Both the position numbers and the translations under genes were made by a program. 64,000 nucleotides of DNA from NCBI GenBank assembly GCA_951813395.1, contig OX638356.1, positions 1,343,340-1,407,339 on the forward strand, read 5' to 3'. Position 1 is the first letter of the stretch; every line of letters starts with the position of its first letter. Under the pieces are notes generated by a model that was not told the origin of the DNA, made no database searches, and saw only the letters and a program-made list of their open reading frames with translations. Below, one piece after another: positions 39,657 through 50,254 of the stretch. This DNA comes from Longimicrobiales bacterium. GTDB taxonomy: Bacteria > Gemmatimonadota > Gemmatimonadetes > Longimicrobiales > Gaopeijiaceae.

Positions 39657-42578
39657 TCAATTCCCTTTCAGAATCGACTCGTAGACGATGGGTCGCAACA
39701 AACGGTCGACGGGTGCTCCGCCGAACGGCTGGAGCTGGGTCCAGGCGAAGGCGATGAGTTCCTCCGCCGGATCGATCCAGAAGTAGGTGTTGGCCACGCC
39801 GGACCACCAGTAGGCGCCGTCCTCCTCTTCGGCGGGCACCGCGAAACCCAGTCCGAATCCGGTATCCGCGAGCCCGGGCAGTATCGGGATCAGTTCCTCC
39901 GGCAACTGGTTGCGCGTCATTTCCCGGACCGTCTCCGGCCGTAGCAGCCGCACCCCGTCCACTTCTCCACCGCCGAGCAGCATCCGCGAGAAACGGAGGT
40001 AGTCGGTAGCAGTCGACGTGAGGCCCCCTCCTCCGGAGAACCATGTGGCGGGCCGGGTGAACGCATCGTCGCCGGGCTGCCCCGCGGGTTGCAGGCCCTG
40101 TCTCGAGACCCGGTACATCCGGGTGAATCGGCCGTGCTTTTCGGCAGGCACACGGAACCCGGTATCGTCCATGCCGAGGGGCTCGAAGATGCGCTCCCGG
40201 AAGAAGTCGTCCAGCGACTGGTCCGCCACGACCTCCACGACGCGGCCGAGGACATCGGTGGACATGCTGTAGACCCACCGATCACCCGGATCGTCGACGA
40301 GCGGGAGCGAAGCGATGACGTCGACGCGCCCTTCCAGATCCTGCCGCGATGCCGCAGAGGCGGCGGACAACGCGCGATTGTACATCGAGTCGACCGGACT
40401 GTCGCCGAAGATGCCGTAGGTGAGCCCCGAGGTGTGCGTCAGGAGGTCGCGGATCAGGATGGGACGGTCGGGGGGACGGGTGGCGCCGCCATCGTAGACC
40501 GCGGCATCGGCAAACTCCGGGATGACGCTCGCAAGTTCGTCGTCCAGGGAGAGAAGGCCGTCCTCGACGAGCATCATCGCGGCGACGCTGGTGACGGGCT
40601 TGGTCATCGAGTAGATGCGGAAGATGTCGTCGGGCTCGAGCGGGTCCTCGTCGAGCACGCGCCATCCGTGCGCCTCCCAGTGCACCACCTCGCCGCGCCG
40701 CGCCACCATGGTCATGATCCCGGCGGTGCGATCCGCGTCGATGAACCGTTGCATCGTCGGACCGATCCGGGCCAGAACGTCGCTGGACAGGCCCACGTCC
40801 TCCGGGGCGGCGGTCGTCCGCGCCGCCGCGGCGGCTGGACCCTGCTCGGCGTCCAGCGCGAAGGTCCACATGTAGGGCGCTCCCACCGTGGACACGCGCC
40901 CTGCCGCGACCGACACGTACTGGCGGCCGTCGATCGAGTAGGTGACCGGAGACCCCGCGCCTCCGCCGATGTCCGCGGACCAGAGTTCCTGCCCGGTGCG
41001 GGCGTCGAGAGCCGCCAGGCTGGAGCCCGTGGCCCAGAACACGAGGTTGCCGCCGGTCGTCATCGTGCCGCCGTGACCTCCCTGGGCCGGGACGCGCCAC
41101 ACCTCGCGGTTCTCCGCGGGGTCCCAGCCCAACAGCAGGTTCGCGGGCCCCTTCAACGCCGGCCGTTCCGGACGGCCGCCCGCGTTGCCGCGGGCCGTGC
41201 CGGTGTTCCACCTGCCCTGCTCGTACTCGTACGCGCCGGTCTTCTCGTAGTAGTAGTTGTTGTTGGTCGCGGGCAGGTAGACGAGACCGGTTCCCGGGTT
41301 GAAGGACATGGTGTGCCAGTTGTGGGCGCCGCGCGGCCCGGGCGCCAGGTAGACGCCCCTGCCGGTCATGCCGTACCGCGCGTCCGGCGTCTCGATCGGA
41401 CGCCCGGTCTCCAGGTCCACGCCGGATGCCCAGGTCAGGTCGTCGGCGAAGGCCTCGGCGGAGATGAGTTCTCCGGTGATCCGGTCGACCACGTAGAAGA
41501 AGCCGTTTTTCGGGGCCTGCACGATGACCTGTCGCTCGCGGCCGCCGATCTCGAGGTCCAGGAGCATGAGCGGCTGCGTGGCCGTGTAGTCCCAGTCGTC
41601 GCCCGGTGTCGTCTGGTAGTGCCAGACCACGGAGCCGTCATCGACGTCCAGCGCCATGATGGCCGAGAGGTAGAGGTTGTCCCCGCCACCGGGACTGCGG
41701 TGATCCCGGTTCCAGGGCGATCCGTTCCCCGTGCCGATGTAGAACAGCCCCGCGGACGCGTCGTGGACCATCGCGTCCCACACCGTACCGCCGCCGCCCG
41801 CGACCCACCATTCGCCGGTCCAGGTCTCGGCCGCCGCGCGCATGGCGTCGCTCTCGAATCCCAGCGCGGGGTTTCCGGGCACCGTGTAGGTGCGCCACAG
41901 CTGCTCCCCGGTCCCGGCGTCGTACGCGGTGACATATCCGCGAACCCCGTATTCGGCGCCGCCGTTGCCGATGATCACGGCGCCGCCCGCGACACGGGGC
42001 GCCCCCGTGATCGTGTAGTCCGAGCCGGGCGGGGTGGTCTGCGTGGTCCACCTGACCGATCCGTCGTGCCGGTCGAGCGCCACCAGGCGACCGTCGAGCA
42101 GCGCGGCGTACACGAGGTCGCCGTCCACGGCGACGCCACGGTTGACGTCGCCACAACAGGCGCGAGGCCCGCCGTGGTCGGCATCCGGGATCCCCGGGTC
42201 CCAGCGCCAGATCTCCTCGCCGGTGGCCGCGTCCAGCGCGAAGACGAAGCTGAGTGGGCCGGTGGCGTACAGCACACCGTCCACGACCAGCGGCGTGGCT
42301 TCGAGGCGGGCCCCGATCTTCGGGATTTCCCAGCGCCACGCGAGGCCGAGCCCGCCGACGTTGTCGGTGTTGATCTGGTCGAGCGGGCTGTACCGGGTCT
42401 CGGCCGCGTCGCGCCCGTGCATGGGCCACTGCGAGACTGCCCGGTCGGTGCCGGCCTGTTGTCCGGCAAGCGTCGACCCAGTGGCGTTTGCGACCGCTGC
42501 GAGCATGCCCGCGACCGCGATCAGCGTTGGCATTGTGGGGGCGGTGAGAGGGCGTGGGGCCAGGGAGGTCGGCTTCAT
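39657..42578 (-). CDS. PQQ quinoprotein dehydrogenase fused to a serine beta-lactamase-type hydrolase
   Basis: One uninterrupted 973-residue frame encodes two enzymes. After a signal peptide (LIAVAGMLAAVANATGSTLAGQ), residues about 50-590 are an eight-bladed quinoprotein alcohol dehydrogenase-like propeller with QWPMHGRDAAETRYSPL, the vicinal disulfide pair C141-C142 in ACCGDVNRG, GNGGAEYGVRGYVTAYD, the TTPGDDWDYTA segment with the presumed catalytic Asp, and tryptophan-docking repeats. After an Ala-rich linker, residues about 605-973 form a class C beta-lactamase/esterase-type domain with catalytic S657-MT-K660, Y770 in WVYSMSTDVLG, LLTHTSGLTYG, and a C-terminal WSGVANTYFWIDP strand. It is exported, probably periplasmic. 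It diverges from a cytochrome c gene 116 bases away, a likely electron acceptor. Substrate is unknown. Confidence 0.85.
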   Translation of the reverse strand: MKPTSLAPRPLTAPTMPTLIAVAGMLAAVANATGSTLAGQQAGTDRAVSQWPMHGRDAAETRYSPLDQINTDNVGGLGLAWRWEIPKIGARLEATPLVVDGVLYATGPLSFVFALDAATGEEIWRWDPGIPDADHGGPRACCGDVNRGVAVDGDLVYAALLDGRLVALDRHDGSVRWTTQTTPPGSDYTITGAPRVAGGAVIIGNGGAEYGVRGYVTAYDAGTGEQLWRTYTVPGNPALGFESDAMRAAAETWTGEWWVAGGGGTVWDAMVHDASAGLFYIGTGNGSPWNRDHRSPGGGDNLYLSAIMALDVDDGSVVWHYQTTPGDDWDYTATQPLMLLDLEIGGRERQVIVQAPKNGFFYVVDRITGELISAEAFADDLTWASGVDLETGRPIETPDARYGMTGRGVYLAPGPRGAHNWHTMSFNPGTGLVYLPATNNNYYYEKTGAYEYEQGRWNTGTARGNAGGRPERPALKGPANLLLGWDPAENREVWRVPAQGGHGGTMTTGGNLVFWATGSSLAALDARTGQELWSADIGGGAGSPVTYSIDGRQYVSVAAGRVSTVGAPYMWTFALDAEQGPAAAAARTTAAPEDVGLSSDVLARIGPTMQRFIDADRTAGIMTMVARRGEVVHWEAHGWRVLDEDPLEPDDIFRIYSMTKPVTSVAAMMLVEDGLLSLDDELASVIPEFADAAVYDGGATRPPDRPILIRDLLTHTSGLTYGIFGDSPVDSMYNRALSAASAASRQDLEGRVDVIASLPLVDDPGDRWVYSMSTDVLGRVVEVVADQSLDDFFRERIFEPLGMDDTGFRVPAEKHGRFTRMYRVSRQGLQPAGQPGDDAFTRPATWFSGGGGLTSTATDYLRFSRMLLGGGEVDGVRLLRPETVREMTRNQLPEELIPILPGLADTGFGLGFAVPAEEEDGAYWWSGVANTYFWIDPAEELIAFAWTQLQPFGGAPVDRLLRPIVYESILKGN

Positions 42579-42694: not shown

Positions 42695-43306
42695 ATGAGA
42701 ACGAACGACGTGCAGGCCCGCGCTACACCGACATCCCGTGTCCGCCGCGGGGCATGGGCGCGCGCCCCGCTCCCGCTGCCCTTCCTGTGCCTGCTGCCAC
42801 TGCTGGTCGCCTGCGCGGACGGCGGCGACCCGCCCGCCTTCGTGGCGGCTGCCGACGCTCGCCAGCTCATGGTCTCCGTGATCGAGCCCGCCGCCGAAGT
42901 CTACTGGGATGCCGTCGGGGTGATCATGGACGAAGAAGGGACGCACGAGATCGAGCCCCGTACCCCGGAGGAGTGGCAGACCGTTGAAGACGCAGCCTGG
43001 GTTCTGGCCGAGTCGGGCAATCTGCTGTTGCTGGACGATCGTGCGCAGGGCAGGGGGCACTGGATCGCCATGTCGCGATCGATGATCGAAGTCGGCAGGC
43101 GCGCGGTGGACGCTGCGGTCGCGAAGGACCCGCAGGCGGTGTTCGACGTGGGCGCCGAAGTCTACTTCGTGTGCACCGGGTGCCACGCGGTCTACGCTGC
43201 CGAAACGCTGCGTCCGAACGCCCTTCCGGCCGCGGAGTCCGGAGATTCCGCTTCCGGCGCGCCCGCGGACGGCGACCCCCACACACCGGATCCACGCCGC
43301 CCGTGA
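42695..43306 (+). CDS. c-type cytochrome lipoprotein
   Basis: The 203-residue protein has a signal ending in LLPLLVACADGG (lipobox) and one haem c site, C160-TGC-H164, in YFVCTGCHAVYA near the C-terminus. The arrangement, a helical N-terminal part with VYWDAVGVIMDEEG and a late CxxCH, resembles cytochrome c' -like four-helix proteins. It could accept electrons from the divergent quinoprotein fusion. ATG 42695 is chosen because it gives a compact basic N-region; a TATCTTTGAG element begins only 14 bases upstream, so the transcript leader would be very short. It overlaps the next gene by 4 bases. Confidence 0.8.
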   Translation: MRTNDVQARATPTSRVRRGAWARAPLPLPFLCLLPLLVACADGGDPPAFVAAADARQLMVSVIEPAAEVYWDAVGVIMDEEGTHEIEPRTPEEWQTVEDAAWVLAESGNLLLLDDRAQGRGHWIAMSRSMIEVGRRAVDAAVAKDPQAVFDVGAEVYFVCTGCHAVYAAETLRPNALPAAESGDSASGAPADGDPHTPDPRRP

Positions 43307-43860
43307 TCGAGCGCTTGCTGGGCTGGCTGGGAGAGACCCCCTGGAGCGTCGCGCTCCTGGAGTCGCTGTACGCGTGGCCGCTGGTGGAATCGACACACGT
43401 CCTTGCGCTGGGCCTGTTCGTCGGCACGACCGCCATGATGGACCTCCGCCTGGTGGGCATCGCGTTTCGCGGGGTTCCGGTCCAGGCCTTCACGGGACGC
43501 CTCCTGCCGTGGACGCACATCGGCTTCGCGATCATTGCCGCGACGGGCGTGCTCCTCTTCTACTCGCAGCCGCTGCGCTACTACCACAACGTGTTCTTTC
43601 GCGTGAAGGTCCTGGTGCTGATCGCGGCCGGGATCAACGCGTTCGTCTTCCACCGGCGCGCACACCGGAATGCCGCGAAATGGGGAGCTGACGCCGTACC
43701 GCCCCGGGCGGTGCGCGCAGCGGGGGCGGTTTCGCTGGCGGCCTGGACGGTGGTCGTCGTGACCGGCCGCCTGATCGCGTACAACTGGTTCGACTGTGAC
43801 CTTCAGCCGCAGCCGGACTGGGTGAACTGGGCAGCGGGCTGCGCGGTCGGGTCGGAGTAG
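43303..43860 (+). CDS. DUF6644-like membrane protein (first paralogue)
   Basis: This 185-residue integral membrane protein starts at the GTGA overlap with the cytochrome gene. It has four hydrophobic segments; the second carries MMDLRLVGIAF, and the third and fourth contain THIGFAIIAATGVLLFYSQPLRYYHNVFFRVKVL. The pattern fits the DUF6644 family of unknown function. Conserved His and Arg residues near the membrane faces could ligate haem b or bind quinone, but that is speculation. A second copy follows 41 bases later. Confidence 0.65.
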   Translation: MIERLLGWLGETPWSVALLESLYAWPLVESTHVLALGLFVGTTAMMDLRLVGIAFRGVPVQAFTGRLLPWTHIGFAIIAATGVLLFYSQPLRYYHNVFFRVKVLVLIAAGINAFVFHRRAHRNAAKWGADAVPPRAVRAAGAVSLAAWTVVVVTGRLIAYNWFDCDLQPQPDWVNWAAGCAVGSE

Positions 43861-43901
43861 ACATCGTGCCCGCGGTCGTTTCCGGAGTTGCGGAGTAGCC
43901 C

Positions 43902-44372
43902 ATGCTGGAGCCCTTCTTCCGCTGGTGCGAGTCCACCCTGATCGGCAGCGCCGTCGCCGAATCCGTCTGGGCGTTCCCGATCCTGGCGGCGCTCCACCTG
44001 CTGGGACTCTGCGTGCTCGGAGGGGCGCTGCTGGTGGTCGACCTGAGGCTGCTGGGCGCCGGACTTACCGGGCAGCCCGTCGCCCGGCTCGCACGGAGTG
44101 CGCGACGGTGGCTGATCACGGGTCTGTTGACAATGGTCGCCACGGGGATCCCGCTCTTCCTGTCGGAGGCGATCAAGGCGTACTACAACACCTCATTCTG
44201 GGTGAAGATGATCACGCTCCCCGTCGCGCTCCTCTTCACCTTCGCGGTGCGCGAGCGCGTTGCCCGCGAGGAGGGCGGGGACCCCGGCGTACGCGGCAAG
44301 GTCGTGGGCGCGGTGTCGCTGGCCCTGTGGTTCACCGTCGCGGCTGCGGGGCGCTGGATCGGGTTTTCGTGA
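43902..44372 (+). CDS. DUF6644-like membrane protein (second paralogue)
   Basis: The 156-residue membrane protein is a diverged duplicate of the preceding gene product: VVDLRLLGAGL aligns with MMDLRLVGIAF, and ITGLLTMVATGIPLFLSEAIKAYYNTSFWVKM aligns with the third and fourth segments of the first copy. With the upstream cytochrome they make a three-gene unit, possibly a membrane electron-transfer module for the quinoprotein across the divergent promoter. No direct functional motif is seen. Confidence 0.65.
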   Translation: MLEPFFRWCESTLIGSAVAESVWAFPILAALHLLGLCVLGGALLVVDLRLLGAGLTGQPVARLARSARRWLITGLLTMVATGIPLFLSEAIKAYYNTSFWVKMITLPVALLFTFAVRERVAREEGGDPGVRGKVVGAVSLALWFTVAAAGRWIGFS

Positions 44373-44407
44373 GAGCTCTTGCGGATTCCCGGCATACTGG
44401 AGCTTCG

Positions 44408-45730
44408 ATGGGCGATTCCCGGGAGGATTCGAGGAAGAACCACAAACGTAGCGAAGGGGTGGCCAGGGCAAGAGTGCGCTCACTGATCTCCGCGATTGCT
44501 CTGTTCCTTTGCGTCCTTTGCGCGCCGGTATCGATAAGCGCGCAGGTCGTGTGCCCGACACCGTGGCGATTAGATGAAGTCCTGCGGATCGGCTCTCGAG
44601 AGAGCGGGCACCTGTTTGGAAACATCAACGATCTCGCGGTCGGGCCTGACAGCGTCCTCTATGTCGCACAAGCCATGGTGCCCGCAGTCAAGGTTTTCTC
44701 ATTCGATGGCCGGTTTCTACGGGAGATCGGCCGGGCGGGACAGGGACCAGGTGACATCTCCGGCGCGGCCTCCGGAGTGGGGTGGATCGGAGACACTCTT
44801 TGGATAGCCGACCGAAGCCGTATCCAGCTGTTCACCACGAGCGAACGCGTGCCGGACGAGGTTATACAGTTCACCATGCCCGTGCCCGGGGAAGGAACGC
44901 GCCTGACGCCTGGCCGAATGCTCGCGGACGGAACATTGGTGGCGGGGCGCCGCAGCATCACTGACTGGAGAGCCTGGTTGACCGCATCGTCGCTCCCTCT
45001 ACGCCGCCTGTCACGATCAGGAGAGGTCATCGACACGTTGGCGATCGTCGATTGGTCGAGCAACGCCGTAGAGTATGAGGCGGACCCCGGTCGACCGTGG
45101 CTTGCCATACACCCGCTCAAGGACCTGCCGACTCATGGACTCAACGAATACCTGACGACACCCAGGCCCGACGGCTCCGCAGTGGTGCAGGTGGCGAAAG
45201 TGAATGAAGACGGAACTCCGCCTTCGTTTGACATCCTGGTGATCTCAATCGGTGGAGACACTCTCTTGCATCGAGCGGTCGAGTACGAACCGCGCGAAGT
45301 TACTTCCGCGATGGAGAGCCGCCTTGCGGACGAATTCACGGCAGTGGTGGTCGGGGATCAAATAAGCCCATCCCTGCGAGCCCCCATGAGCGAAACGACG
45401 CGCTCGCGCCGACGCCGTGCGGCTCGCAGCGCGTTCTGGGTTCCGGAATACCATCCTCCGGTCAGGGAGGTAGTAGCCGGAACGGATGGGACTATCTGGT
45501 TGCTACGAGAGATGCGTGAGGACCGTGTCGATGTCTGGGAGATCTACGATTCGGATGGAACGCTAGTGGCCAGGGTCGAGGTTGAACAGGGTCGCATATT
45601 CGGAAAACCTTGGCGTCCTCGTCTCGGCATTGTCCTCGCGAGCCGTAACGAGGTCTGGGGCACCACGTTCGACGAGTTCTCTGTTCCATACATTCACCGC
45701 TACCGCGTTGATCAAACATGCGCGCGTTAG
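44408..45730 (+). CDS. Secreted six-bladed beta-propeller protein
   Basis: The 440-residue product has a polar N-terminus, a signal helix (SLISAIALFLCVLCAPVSISAQ) and NHL/6-bladed propeller repeats (NDLAVGPDSVLYVAQAMVPAVKVFSFDGRFLREIGRAGQGPG, GVGWIGDTLWIADRSRIQLF, VVAGTDGTIWLLREMREDRVDVWEIYDSDG). Such propellers are numerous in Gemmatimonadota and are presumed binding proteins. Base composition is clearly lower in G+C than its neighbours: three sampled 60-base rows give 65, 57 and 55 percent. It is convergent with the DUF6152 operon. Confidence 0.7.
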   Translation: MGDSREDSRKNHKRSEGVARARVRSLISAIALFLCVLCAPVSISAQVVCPTPWRLDEVLRIGSRESGHLFGNINDLAVGPDSVLYVAQAMVPAVKVFSFDGRFLREIGRAGQGPGDISGAASGVGWIGDTLWIADRSRIQLFTTSERVPDEVIQFTMPVPGEGTRLTPGRMLADGTLVAGRRSITDWRAWLTASSLPLRRLSRSGEVIDTLAIVDWSSNAVEYEADPGRPWLAIHPLKDLPTHGLNEYLTTPRPDGSAVVQVAKVNEDGTPPSFDILVISIGGDTLLHRAVEYEPREVTSAMESRLADEFTAVVVGDQISPSLRAPMSETTRSRRRRAARSAFWVPEYHPPVREVVAGTDGTIWLLREMREDRVDVWEIYDSDGTLVARVEVEQGRIFGKPWRPRLGIVLASRNEVWGTTFDEFSVPYIHRYRVDQTCAR

Positions 45731-45947
45731 GAGATGTCGAGTTCCAATCGCGGCACCCAGGCCGCCACGGGGGAGGTCATCGCTCGAACCCTCCCTCGCC
45801 ACGCTCGGGGCCGCGGGGCCGGGGCGGCCGGGGAGATGCGTGCTACGCTCCGACCGCGCACCCGCTCGACAACCCTGTCGACAAGGGTCGACCGGGTTGA
45901 CCAGGCCAGCAGCAGCGGCCCCAAAGGGCCAGCAAGCCCCACCCAAA

Positions 45948-45968
45948 TGCTAGCAGTCAGTGCTAGCA
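45948..45968 (-). terminator. Hairpin between convergent units
   Basis: TGCTAGCA occurs twice (45948-45955 and 45961-45968) around GTCAG. The copies form an 8-bp stem, and each is itself palindromic. On the minus strand the stem begins at the stop of the DUF6152 gene and is followed by TTTGGG, so it may end that operon; on the plus strand it would end the propeller message. Confidence 0.5.
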
Positions 45969-46412
45969 CCGCCCCCGTTCCCGTCTCGCCTTCAGCAGCT
46001 CCTCGTCGTACGGCGCCCCCGTGCCCGATGACCCCAGGAAGATCTTGCTCCCGTCCGTGAAGGTCACGTCACGGCCGTTGGCGCGCTTCAGCGAGTGGTC
46101 CTTGGCCTGGTATCCGTCAACGATGATCTCGGTGCCTGGCTGCAGGCAATCGCGCCGGAGCCCCCGCCGCAACAAAACGTTCGGCGTGCCTCCCTCGACC
46201 GCCCACACCTCGGTCGCGCCGTCCTCGTTCTCGATCTCCAGGTGGATCCAGGTGTGCGGATTCACCCACTCCAGCTTGACGATCTTCCCCTGCAGCCGCA
46301 CCGGCGCATTGCGGTCGAACTCGGCTCCGAAGGCGTGATGCGCCACCAGGGGCACTGCCACACCCGCCAGCAGGGCAACGGCGCCGGTCACCATCGTCCA
46401 GGTCCTTCGCAT
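45963..46412 (-). CDS. DUF6152 secreted protein
   Basis: This 149-residue exported protein belongs to the DUF6152 family. It has a signal peptide (VTGAVALLAGVAVPLVAHHAFGAEF) and the family core VRLQGKIVKLEWVNPHTWIHLEI, with AVEGGTPNVLLRRGL. The fold is probably a small OB-like beta barrel. DUF6152 genes are often found beside secreted proteins of the kind upstream. It is the last gene of the minus-strand quinohaemoprotein operon, 4 bases after its neighbour. Confidence 0.8.
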   Translation of the reverse strand: MRRTWTMVTGAVALLAGVAVPLVAHHAFGAEFDRNAPVRLQGKIVKLEWVNPHTWIHLEIENEDGATEVWAVEGGTPNVLLRRGLRRDCLQPGTEIIVDGYQAKDHSLKRANGRDVTFTDGSKIFLGSSGTGAPYDEELLKARRERGRC

Positions 46413-46416
46413 GGTC

Positions 46417-47514
46417 CTATTCCCTTCGCTCTTCGGCCCGCGCCCCGCGCAGGACGTTCTCGAGCGCGTAGTTTGCTTCGTGGCAGGCGTATTCGTAGAC
46501 GAGCCCTTCGAGCCGCTTGAACGGCACCTCGCCGCTCCAGGGCCGCGTGAACACCAGCGGATCCTCGACCGTGAACTCGTAGTTGATGGTGTGCTCGTCG
46601 GCGCGCGTGAAGCGTTCGGTCACCTTGAACTCCTCGGACGGCGCGAAGCCCTGCAGCGTCTGGTTCGGGTGGAGATTGGTCGTCTCCACGACCAGGGTGT
46701 CGCCGGCCCAGCGCCCCCACGAGTCGCCCATCCACGGGCGGACGTGGGGCGGCAGACGGCTCGGCTCACCGAGACGGATGATCCTCACGTCGTGCACCAT
46801 CTCGGTCATGATCATGACATGGTCCGGGGTCTGCACGATGGTGTAGTTGTTGTTGTAGAAATAGTTGGGAAGCATCGGCGGGCCCGCGTTCGACCCGAAT
46901 GACATGATGCAGCGCTCGGCCAGCGGACGGTTCTCCGGGTTGTCGAAGGCGCCGAACTGTGCACGAAAGCGCCGCCGCTCCGCCATCCGCCGCCGCCCCT
47001 CGTCGTTCAGTTGCGGCAGCCGCCCGTCCTCCGGGTCGACGACGAGCGACGTCCGTGGCTCCCCGTTGAAGACCGCGACGCGCTCTCCTGCGTCGATGAA
47101 GAAGGAGTTGTAGCCCCCGGTGCCCCCCGATGCGGCGTCGAAGAGCGGGTTCCCGGTGAACACGCCGCCGACCGGCGGAGCCTCCCGGTTGGGATCGCTG
47201 TCGGCGTAGGCCTCCACGCGCGAGTCGTAGACCCATCCCTCGATCTCGGCGACTTCTTCCCAGGTGTAGACCCGCCCCTGGTCCTCCCGGCGCTGAATGG
47301 GCGTGATCGTGGCGTTGGACCAGTTGCCCTGCAGGTCCGGGTGACCGGCGGGCGTGCGTGGGACGACCCACTCCGCCTTCTCCTGTTCGCTCTCCTGTCC
47401 CGCGAGTGCGGAGGCCGCGACAGCGAAGGCCACGCCGGCCAGGAGGACCGCCGCCACCGCCAGGGTCCCCGTGCTGGCGGCGCTAGCGAATCGGATTCTT
47501 GCGCAGATGTCCAT
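46417..47514 (-). CDS. Secreted protein of unknown function (365 residues)
   Basis: An exported protein with a signal peptide (LAVAAVLLAGVAFAVAASALAGQ). The mature part starts with PRTPAGHPDLQGNWSNATITP, followed by FNGEPRTSLVVDPEDGRLPQL, QTPDHVMIMTEMVHDVRIIRL, a WMGDSWGRWAGDTLVVETTN strand pair, and LVYEYACHEANYALENVLRG. No catalytic motif is recognised. The same GRWxGDTxVVE block and end region occur in the upstream gene product, so the two are distant paralogues. Such proteins commonly sit beside DUF6152. It overlaps the upstream gene by 32 bases. Confidence 0.65.
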   Translation of the reverse strand: MDICARIRFASAASTGTLAVAAVLLAGVAFAVAASALAGQESEQEKAEWVVPRTPAGHPDLQGNWSNATITPIQRREDQGRVYTWEEVAEIEGWVYDSRVEAYADSDPNREAPPVGGVFTGNPLFDAASGGTGGYNSFFIDAGERVAVFNGEPRTSLVVDPEDGRLPQLNDEGRRRMAERRRFRAQFGAFDNPENRPLAERCIMSFGSNAGPPMLPNYFYNNNYTIVQTPDHVMIMTEMVHDVRIIRLGEPSRLPPHVRPWMGDSWGRWAGDTLVVETTNLHPNQTLQGFAPSEEFKVTERFTRADEHTINYEFTVEDPLVFTRPWSGEVPFKRLEGLVYEYACHEANYALENVLRGARAEERRE

Positions 47515-48322
47515 AGATCAACTCCTCGACGAACTCGACGCACTTGAACTGACCAAGGCGCGCGTTCGGGTCGATATTGCGGTAGAGCGGCATCCGGATC
47601 GTCCAGGAACGCGAAAACGTCTCGGGGTCGTCGAGTTCGGCCTCGTACATGATGTGGTCGGGGCCGAGCATCGTGTAGCGTTCGGTGACCCTGAGTCGCG
47701 CGCCGTGGTGGTTGCCTGCGCGGTCGAGCCAGGTCTGGCCGTTGAAGCCGTTCACCTCGACGACGAAGGTGTCGCCCTCCCAGCGGCCCACGGACTGGCC
47801 CATCCACGAATCGACCTGGGGCGGTCCCGGGTCCTCCAGGTAGATGTCGCGCATGGCGCCCGCGTATTCGTAGGCGATGAAGAACCTGGCCTCACTCTGG
47901 AAGATCCGGAACGGGAACGGCATGTAGGTCGCGCGGGGCACCCCCGGCAGGTAGCACCTGATCTCGGGGTCGCGGTCCAGCCAGAGTTCGCGGTTCTCGT
48001 CGCGGCGCTCGAGCGCTTCGGGCAGATACGGGATTTCTCCGCCCACGACCACGCCATAGCCGGATGGGACCGACCCCACCGCACCCATGGCGACCACCTC
48101 GCCGGCGGGCACGGGGATCACGGGACCCGGCTGCATCGCAAGTGCGGGACGCGCCGTGTGCGGCTCGATATCCCAGTGCGCATTGCCGAGCGCCTGCCAC
48201 AGCCCGTTCATGTCGGGTCTGCCCGAGGCGGTGCGGGGAATGGAGGCGTCCTGGGCGCAGGCCGCACCCGGGAAGGCCATGGCCGCCAGCGCCGCCAGCA
48301 TCAGTGTTCTGGGTCGTCTCAT
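47483..48322 (-). CDS. Secreted protein of unknown function (279 residues)
   Basis: ATG 48322 gives a clean signal peptide (LAALAAMAFPGAACAQ). The mature protein has the ASGRPDMNGLWQALG opening, EIRCYLPGVPRATYMPFPFRIFQ, SWMGQSVGRWEGDTFVVEVNGFN and a C-terminal CVEFVEELIYGHLRK. It shares the DxxGxW opening and the GRWxGDTxVVE block with the following gene product. Role is unknown; a partner of the quinohaemoprotein upstream is suggested only by operon position. Confidence 0.65.
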   Translation of the reverse strand: MRRPRTLMLAALAAMAFPGAACAQDASIPRTASGRPDMNGLWQALGNAHWDIEPHTARPALAMQPGPVIPVPAGEVVAMGAVGSVPSGYGVVVGGEIPYLPEALERRDENRELWLDRDPEIRCYLPGVPRATYMPFPFRIFQSEARFFIAYEYAGAMRDIYLEDPGPPQVDSWMGQSVGRWEGDTFVVEVNGFNGQTWLDRAGNHHGARLRVTERYTMLGPDHIMYEAELDDPETFSRSWTIRMPLYRNIDPNARLGQFKCVEFVEELIYGHLRKNPIR

Positions 48323-48391
48323 GCCCGCTTTCCGATCACGAGTGTGTCCGGTCACGCTCCCAATGTGCGGACTCACGGGGGTCGGGTCCAG

Positions 48392-50254
48392 TTACCTGAC
48401 CCCGAAGGCGAGCAGTAGGTTGCCGGGCATCTGGTTGAACGTCCCGTATCCGCTGTTTACGAAGAGCATCCCGCCGGCGACCACCGGCCCCGGTCCGTCG
48501 ATGGCACCGCCCCGGGCGGGCACTCCGTTGGAGGACTCCGTCACGTGGGTGGTGTCGAACTCCCACACGACCGTCCCGTCCATGGTCGAATGGGCGCGAA
48601 TGACGCCGTCGAGGCCGCCTGCAAACACCACTCCGTCGATCGCGGTGACGGCGGCCGAGATGGCCGCATAGCATCGCTCCTTGCCCTCGCAGCCGTTCTC
48701 TGGAGCCGGCGCGCCCCACACGACCTCGCCGGTCATCAGATCGAGCGCGTACAGCCCCGGTGCGCGCTCGTGCTCGGGATTCACGTCCGAGATCACGGCG
48801 TTGCGGTCGGCGTTCGGCGCGTACGCGAGCCGGCCGTCGGTGGCCATGCCCCAGTGAATCCCGCCCAGCATGCTTCCCTTTCCCACCTGGGTCGACCACA
48901 GCACGGCGCCGTCGGCGTCGGGGTCCAGCGCCCACACCGTCCCCGATTTCTGGCCGGCGACCAGGATTTCCCGGCCATCGGCGCGCGTAACCAGCATCGG
49001 GGCCATGCCGAAGTCGAAATCCGGCCCGATGGGGTCGGGGCAGTTCTCGCGAAACCGCAACTGCGTACACGCCATGTTGAAGGCGTCGCCGGATGTCGCC
49101 TGGAACGACCATGCGAGCTCGCCGGTCTCCATGTCGATCGCGACGACCGCGTCGCTGTTCCCGGTGGTCGGACGGGTGAGGTTCTCGCCCGTTCCCGCGT
49201 AGATGCGCCCGCGACGGGGATCCACGGTCGGACTGGACCACACCGCCGCACCCGATGGCGCCCACTGCGGCGTGCCTGCCGCGTTGGCCTCGATTGCTTC
49301 CGGATAGCCCGGAATGATCCGGTGATACCACAGCGTCTCGCCGGTGAGGGCGTCCAGGGCGGCGACCGCTCCCGACGACGTGCAGCATTCGTAGCGCGGG
49401 TCGCCTGCCAACACGACTTCCAGGGAGGAGATGGGGACGAAGAGCCGTCCGTCGTGCAGGGCGGGCGTGCCGGTTCCGTAGGACGCCGGGTGCCAGCCCA
49501 CGCGGGACTTCCACAGCAGGTCGCCGCTCTCGATGTCCAGCGCGTAGACGTTGGTACGCGAGTCCATGAACCATGCGGTCGGCCTGCCTGCCGGCCCCTC
49601 GCCCACCAGCACCGCTCCGCGCACGCCGGCATCCGCCTCGAATCGCCAGCGGGCGCATCCGGTCTCCGCATCCAGGGCCAATACGTTGCCGAAGGGCCCG
49701 CCCACGACCACGTGCCCGCCCGCGACGGCAGGCGACGTGCGAACCTGGCCCGCGTCCGGGAACGCGAACGCCCAGCGCAGTTCCAGATTCGGCACATCCG
49801 CCGCATCGAGTCCCGCCCCTTGCGGGGGCTGGAATCCCGTTCCCGCCAGGTTGCCTGCAAACCCCATCCACGAAACGTTCCCGACATCCAGGGGGAACCA
49901 GCCCGCGTCCGCGCAGAACGCCGACTCGGGGAAGCTCCCGGCCACGTAGGTCCGGCGGGCCAGGTACTCCGCCACCCGGATCCGCTGCTGCGGCGACAGT
50001 GCAGCTCCCTCCGCCCGCATCACCCCGTCCTCCAGCGAGGCCACGATCGCGCGCGGAGACAGCTGGTTGAGGAGCCCGGTGCCGGGTGTGCGCTCGTCCC
50101 CGGCCGAGGTGTGGCAGCTTGCGCACTCCTGTGCGAAGATTCGCGCGCCCTCCCCCTCTTCCCGCTCTCCGGGATCCTGCGCGCAGGAGAGTCCGGGGAC
50201 CAGGGACGCGACGACCCCCGCAGCCATCGTGACCGCCGTGCCCATGCCCTTCAT
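48392..50254 (-). CDS. Quinohaemoprotein dehydrogenase (cytochrome c plus PQQ propeller)
   Basis: The 620-residue protein has a signal peptide (VASLVPGLSCAQ), an N-terminal cytochrome c domain (C44-AS-C47-H48, FAQECASCHTSAG) and a PQQ-binding beta-propeller from about residue 130 with repeated ALDAxTG blades. The domain order, cytochrome first, and the vicinal pair C290-C291 (YECCTSSG) resemble polyvinyl-alcohol dehydrogenase-type quinohaemoproteins. It would oxidise an alcohol in the periplasm and pass electrons to its own haem. Substrate is unproven. It is the first large gene of a four-gene minus-strand operon. Its start lies 30 bases after an intrinsic-terminator-like hairpin. Confidence 0.85.
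   Translation of the reverse strand: MKGMGTAVTMAAGVVASLVPGLSCAQDPGEREEGEGARIFAQECASCHTSAGDERTPGTGLLNQLSPRAIVASLEDGVMRAEGAALSPQQRIRVAEYLARRTYVAGSFPESAFCADAGWFPLDVGNVSWMGFAGNLAGTGFQPPQGAGLDAADVPNLELRWAFAFPDAGQVRTSPAVAGGHVVVGGPFGNVLALDAETGCARWRFEADAGVRGAVLVGEGPAGRPTAWFMDSRTNVYALDIESGDLLWKSRVGWHPASYGTGTPALHDGRLFVPISSLEVVLAGDPRYECCTSSGAVAALDALTGETLWYHRIIPGYPEAIEANAAGTPQWAPSGAAVWSSPTVDPRRGRIYAGTGENLTRPTTGNSDAVVAIDMETGELAWSFQATSGDAFNMACTQLRFRENCPDPIGPDFDFGMAPMLVTRADGREILVAGQKSGTVWALDPDADGAVLWSTQVGKGSMLGGIHWGMATDGRLAYAPNADRNAVISDVNPEHERAPGLYALDLMTGEVVWGAPAPENGCEGKERCYAAISAAVTAIDGVVFAGGLDGVIRAHSTMDGTVVWEFDTTHVTESSNGVPARGGAIDGPGPVVAGGMLFVNSGYGTFNQMPGNLLLAFGVR

Follow-up and report, generated by a model that had tools for sequence, protein, structure and literature searches.

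A single open reading frame joins an apparently intact PQQ-dependent alcohol dehydrogenase to a family VIII.1 esterase in Gemmatimonadota

In a 64,000-nucleotide stretch of a Longimicrobiales genome, which we call the window, one intact open reading frame of 973 codons (39657-42578, minus strand) encodes a quinoprotein alcohol dehydrogenase followed by an esterase. To our knowledge, quinoprotein alcohol dehydrogenases have been found with cytochrome c partners and not with hydrolases. We consider it somewhat more probable than its opposite that the product is a periplasmic bifunctional enzyme, in which a flexible linker connects a calcium-type PQQ-dependent alcohol dehydrogenase with a serine esterase of family VIII.1, that the fusion was born in this lineage and that a separate cytochrome acts as its electron acceptor. 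The gene is composed of the following parts:

39657..42578, minus strand: fusion gene, 973 aa, with signal peptide, quinoprotein alcohol dehydrogenase, linker and family VIII.1 esterase.
42465..42578, minus strand: signal peptide region, approximately residues 1-38, ending ...STLAG, recognized by the hydrophobic N-terminus of the translation; the mature start is putative.
40845..42440, minus strand: PQQ alcohol dehydrogenase beta-propeller, residues 47-578.
40806..40844, minus strand: flexible linker, approximately residues 579-591, of variable length among orthologues.
39660..40805, minus strand: family VIII.1 esterase domain, approximately residues 592-973, with S657-MT-K660, Y770, GGxG at 849-852 and W925-S-G927.

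Both domains are recognized in the same frame by Pfam, with matches to PF01011 (PQQ) that begin at residue 51 (E 9e-74) and to PF00144 (Beta-lactamase) over residues 610-954 (E 4.9e-66), and by NCBIfam, which bears out a sequence-only reading of this DNA that had described a single-frame fusion of a quinoprotein with a hydrolase. The residues named in that reading are located where it had placed them, namely C141-C142, GDDWDY at 326-331, S657, K660 and Y770. It had also raised two grounds for doubt, a sequencing error and an absence of the fusion from all close relatives, and neither is borne out. Of the 23 genomes of the genus, 20 have the fusion in unbroken form; that of the window is one of them, and the remaining copies are 72–91% identical to the window copy. 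It is also present in G057, a genome of another genus. For ten close pairs, dN/dS amounts to 0.08–0.16 in the propeller half and to 0.09–0.20 in the esterase half and, as judged from these ratios of about 0.1, both halves are under purifying selection. The intact frame together with the constraint on both halves excludes chance or assembly error, and the probability that two adjacent genes were joined artificially is practically negligible, since the same open frame is found in 20 separately assembled genomes at 72–100% identity and nothing was found in favour of such an artefact.

The N-terminal half passes the NCBIfam model TIGR03075 (PQQ-dependent dehydrogenase, methanol/ethanol family) with 539.6 bits against a cut-off of 480.05 over residues 45-561, and by this score belongs to the small-alcohol dehydrogenase type. 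Its sequence matches the quinohaemoprotein alcohol dehydrogenase 1kv9 with an E value of 1.8e-165, and the predicted structure can be superposed on 1kv9 with Z 51.0 and 51% identity across 526 residues. In an alignment to 1kb0, C141-C142, E209, N285 and D330 correspond to C116-C117, E185, N263 and D308, which we take to be the vicinal cysteine disulphide pair, the calcium/PQQ ligands Glu and Asn, and the catalytic Asp of that enzyme. Among 46 sampled quinoproteins, fused and separate, C141, C142, N285 and D330 are invariant, and E209 is kept in 45 with an Asp in the remaining one. All 46 copies carry Thr332, two residues past D330, at the switch site that is occupied by Asp in lanthanide enzymes of the XoxF/ExaF type. 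Hence, dependence on a lanthanide, which the earlier reading had entertained as a possible metal, is unlikely. A scan of the sequence found no CxxCH in the fusion protein, and C141 and C142 are its only cysteines, so that it has no covalent haem site and is not a quinohaemoprotein. We regard the propeller as an apparently intact, calcium-type PQQ-dependent alcohol dehydrogenase.

The C-terminal half matches the family VIII esterases 7pp3, 7u1b and 4ivi with E values of 1e-78 to 1e-70. Its model aligns with EstG (7uda; 373 residues, Z 48.7, 43% identity) and with EH7 (7pp3; Z 48.6, 41% identity), the two matches spanning 373–377 residues. Family VIII.1 is characterized by the presence of SxxK, Y-x-x and W-x-G and the absence of GxSxG (Table 1 of PMC9795927). 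The domain possesses S657-K660, Y770 and W925-G927, contains no GxSxG and reads GGGG at 849-852; S657, K660 and Y770 are invariant among 42 esterase copies, fused and separate. Two other assignments were rejected: a class C beta-lactamase, given that residues 770-772 are Y-S-M instead of Y-A-N and that the domain harbors no K/H-T/S-G motif corresponding to K-T-G, and the methyl acetate hydrolase AcmB, for which the NF052559 score is 192.8 against a cut-off of 550 bits. This half appears to be an intact SxxK esterase of family VIII.1.

Structure prediction, which had been proposed as a check, yields both folds with confidence and matches them to 1kv9 and EstG/EH7, respectively. The AlphaFold2 model of the fusion, built from 79 aligned sequences, has a mean pLDDT of 84.4 and falls below 50 solely at residues 1-46, 579-586 (within the linker) and 742-745. 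Its pTM of 0.63 fits an uncertain orientation between the two domains.

The fusion in G057 is 63% identical to the window copy and is situated at a different locus from the copies of the genus. Short ORFs resembling pieces of integrases or transposases are found a few kb from it (L109/L162, G057:C25), and their vicinity suggests that this fusion may have been transferred. G032, which is binned under genus g2, has a fused copy too, along with both parts as separate genes. Because of these separate copies, and because its fused propeller half is nearly identical to that of G002 (dS 0.024), this bin is probably mis-binned or contaminated. The bin bears the title RHO2_bin_50 and is labelled Gammaproteobacteria, and its contig G032:C63 (L157, L032) is near-identical to the fused locus of the genus. 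When 395 genomes were sampled across the phylum, no further fused copy was found, nor was there a plasmid-borne one among 72,556 plasmid records, none of which covers 80% of the query. In a scan of GTDB contigs by exact peptide patterns of the fusion protein, the reach of which is confined to close relatives, all full-length loci came from Gemmatimonadota bins bar the one in G032. The named matches are uncultured Gemmatimonadota, many of whose titles we take to belong to sponge metagenome series, and the fused genus appears to be mostly sponge-associated. Full-text searches of the open-access literature found no PQQ/esterase or PQQ/beta-lactamase fusion. Such a fusion without a cytochrome c domain did not turn up in the papers and plasmid records covered, and the architecture seems not to have been described in the open-access publications that we searched; both component families are well known.

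Comparison with related genera indicates that the halves of the fusion descend from separate genes. The stand-alone quinoproteins of these genera stop where the fused propeller stops (...WTFALD), and the stand-alone esterases, past their own signal peptide, start where the fused esterase starts (...TTAAPEEVGLSSEVLARIGP). The joint is a variable linker rich in Ala, Gly, Pro and Gln, which comprises about 8–25 residues in the genus and is longer in G057. At this locus g36 and g2 have only the esterase, which there bears a signal peptide itself, the arrangement in g16 is nearly the same, and the 5′ coding start region of the fusion is similar to that of the stand-alone esterases at this locus. 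Since the outgroups carry the esterase alone at the same site, the propeller would have been added to a resident esterase gene, with a stand-alone esterase as the ancestral state. The orthologous quinoprotein of g2 is 75% identical and located elsewhere in the genome. A search for a tandem arrangement of the two genes, as might have preceded the fusion, found the quinoprotein and esterase genes of the relatives at different loci. In G036 the stand-alone quinoprotein gene is found near greA and orthologues of the window genes 53002 and 53945, and from this position it is possible that the quinoprotein was formerly encoded near the esterase locus. As for direction and mechanism, we infer as the simplest account that the quinoprotein sequence came to lie in frame behind the signal peptide and ahead of the mature esterase.

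The propeller was later dropped at least once, and probably twice, with the esterase being kept. The esterase tree places the stand-alone copies from g2, G020 and G017 within the fused clade, the last two genomes being members of the fused genus. With the groups for the AU and constraint tests having been picked after the trees were seen, they reject both an esterase tree that holds the fused copies together (AU p 4.5e-4) and one that holds the whole genus together without g2 (p 5.5e-5). The neighbouring genes back the nesting of G020 (support 98), and loss of the propeller in G020/G017 is well supported by these phylogenies. An orthologous quinoprotein is absent altogether from both genomes, so that the esterase works alone there. 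In g2 a loss of the propeller is probable. The neighbour-gene tree of g2 agrees with its nesting (support 95) and speaks for g2 having received the whole locus from g1, yet an AU test does not reject a single g1 clade with g2 placed separately (p 0.35). The propeller tree unites the fused copies of the genus (support 83) and puts G057, which has a long branch, with g2. A tree with all fused propellers in one clade is disfavoured (p 0.017), and the fusion in G057 may thus be a second event. Since the esterase began as a stand-alone enzyme and fused ancestors have given up the propeller again, coupling of the two activities is not essential.

Next to the fusion gene, the window contains the following genes of a conserved locus, which was traced by synteny:

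42695..43306, plus strand: gene of a monohaem (CTGCH) lipoprotein, divergent from the fusion gene, with a class II cytochrome c-like four-helix fold predicted from alignment and model.
43303-43860 and 43902-44372, plus strand: two DUF6644 membrane proteins.
45963-46394, minus strand: DUF6152 protein.
46417-47514 and 47483-48301, minus strand: two secreted proteins, paralogous to each other, that match no Pfam or NCBIfam family.
48392-50254, minus strand: quinohaemoprotein with an N-terminal cytochrome c and a propeller.

The cytochrome gene lies 116 bp from the fusion gene. Its product carries a lipobox and a single haem site, the CxxCH being C-terminal, and is modelled as a four-helix bundle, whose best fold matches are weak (E 0.03–1; cytochromes c′, cb562 and a Kuenenia haem-protein complex). 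Since the fusion protein itself carries no haem, this cytochrome is a candidate for its electron acceptor. An arrival of the cytochrome together with the propeller was rejected, as the gene already adjoins that of the stand-alone esterase in g2 and g36. The cytochrome and DUF6644 genes are found at this locus without the propeller too, beside another quinohaemoprotein, which they may serve instead. The locus at 42695-50254 recurs in several genera, with or without the esterase. Among 117 genomes of the family, both halves are encoded in 31 and only one or the other in 24 and 6, which is more co-occurrence than expected (p 8e-8 by genome, 0.004 by genus), the values being uncorrected for phylogeny and the fused genomes, which themselves supply much of the signal, being included. 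With the same uncorrected ancestry and inclusion of fused genomes, the quinoprotein and the esterase each co-occur with the cytochrome too. In most fused genomes, a protein of 815–890 aa is encoded between the fusion and greA (L123:3107-5686, minus strand); it is secreted, has bacterial Ig-like domains in the copy examined and is absent from the window genome.

A second fusion of this kind was observed in the window genome, where a PQQ propeller and an M28 peptidase are joined in a protein of 1068 aa (G000:C1:829274-832462; L174:5257-8463, minus strand). Its gene adjoins one for a CxxCH cytochrome and is intact in six genomes of the genus, and the parts are separate in relatives. Together with the losses of the propeller, this fusion speaks against an obligatory coupling of dehydrogenase and esterase.

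We propose that the fusion protein would be secreted into the periplasm with both sites active, and that the tether would keep two steps of one pathway together. In the simplest case an ester or lactone would be cleaved and the resulting alcohol then oxidised, or the two steps would run in the opposite order; ester hydrolysis followed by oxidation of the freed alcohol by the propeller, as put forward in the earlier reading, would be plausible. The electrons would leave PQQ to a separate cytochrome c, for which the divergent lipoprotein cytochrome is the first candidate. More tentatively, a built-in acceptor may have been swapped for a hydrolase, giving one periplasmic enzyme for ester or lactone opening and alcohol oxidation in either order, which along with the M28 fusion would represent a general 'quinoprotein plus hydrolase' design.

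Both halves might instead be active but unrelated, the fusion being a near-neutral joining of genes that was kept because it is harmless and secures co-export. This would agree with the esterase-only descendants nesting inside the fused clade and with the second quinoprotein fusion, to a peptidase whose counterparts remain apart in relatives. However, the fusion is intact and constrained across most of the genus, related genera tend to have both halves even where these are unlinked, and genus g14 has a fusion of these two families that may have arisen separately, so that we judge an unrelated pair to be a serious but rather unlikely explanation.

Alternatively, oxidation might come first: the quinoprotein would turn a hydroxyl group (a secondary alcohol or lactol) into a ketone or lactone, and the serine hydrolase would cleave this product, as in the degradation of PVA. 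The pva operon of Sphingopyxis sp. 113P3 joins exactly these three functions, a PVA dehydrogenase, an oxidised-PVA hydrolase and a cytochrome c (PMC4611681). The quinohaemoprotein encoded at the locus (48392-50254) would likewise suit this order of steps. However, the propeller scores as a member of the small-alcohol dehydrogenase subfamily and the PVA hydrolase belongs to another hydrolase family, and we regard oxidation before hydrolysis as unlikely.

With EstG of Caulobacter as the closest solved structure of the hydrolase half, the latter might be an envelope enzyme like EstG and act on periplasmic glucans or cell-wall material, while the propeller would oxidise a sugar or its reducing end. 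The substrate of EstG is a cyclic glucose hexamer (PMC11389396). Yet the ester hydrolase EH7 is equally close, no glucan genes were seen nearby and the propeller subfamily is of the alcohol rather than the sugar type, which makes a role in glucan turnover improbable. Finally, the quinoprotein half might have no cofactor in vivo and serve solely as a scaffold, an 'empty quinoprotein'. The 23 genomes gave no PqqC match, in a search that was blank in control genomes too, and solely PqqE matches far below the cut-off. Since PQQ can be taken up, the cofactor and catalytic residues are all conserved and the score is far under the cut-off of the empty-quinoprotein model (332 versus 650), we consider such a scaffold very improbable.

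Should the proposed bifunctional enzyme be confirmed, a natural hydrolase–dehydrogenase fusion would imply that two very large enzyme families are connected in a pathway. It would also provide a cascade biocatalyst for esters and lactones that is ready for use, and give a hint of the periplasmic oxidations carried out by uncultured sponge-associated Gemmatimonadota. As there are relatives with fused halves, with separate halves and without the propeller, what is gained by tethering can be tested directly.

When compared to characterized systems, the propeller resembles the type II quinohaemoprotein alcohol dehydrogenases (ADH-IIB 1kv9, 1kb0 and 1yiq), with which it shares the positions of the disulphide, the calcium ligands and the catalytic Asp. 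While these enzymes possess a C-terminal cytochrome c domain, the fusion has a hydrolase in its place. The esterase half has the motifs of the family VIII.1 esterases EH7 (7pp3), 4ivi and EstG (7uda) at 40–43% identity and Z 47–49; the known members stand alone, whereas here the domain is fused behind a quinoprotein. AcmB (NF052559), a related SxxK esterase, releases methanol and hence an alcohol, but is itself stand-alone as well. The fusion with the M28 peptidase likewise combines a quinoprotein propeller with a C-terminal hydrolase in the same genus, but with a different propeller (40% identical) and an unrelated peptidase partner. In the pva operon a hydrolase and a cytochrome c likewise work alongside a quinoprotein dehydrogenase (PMC4611681), there as separate proteins with a known substrate, in contrast to the one fused protein described here.
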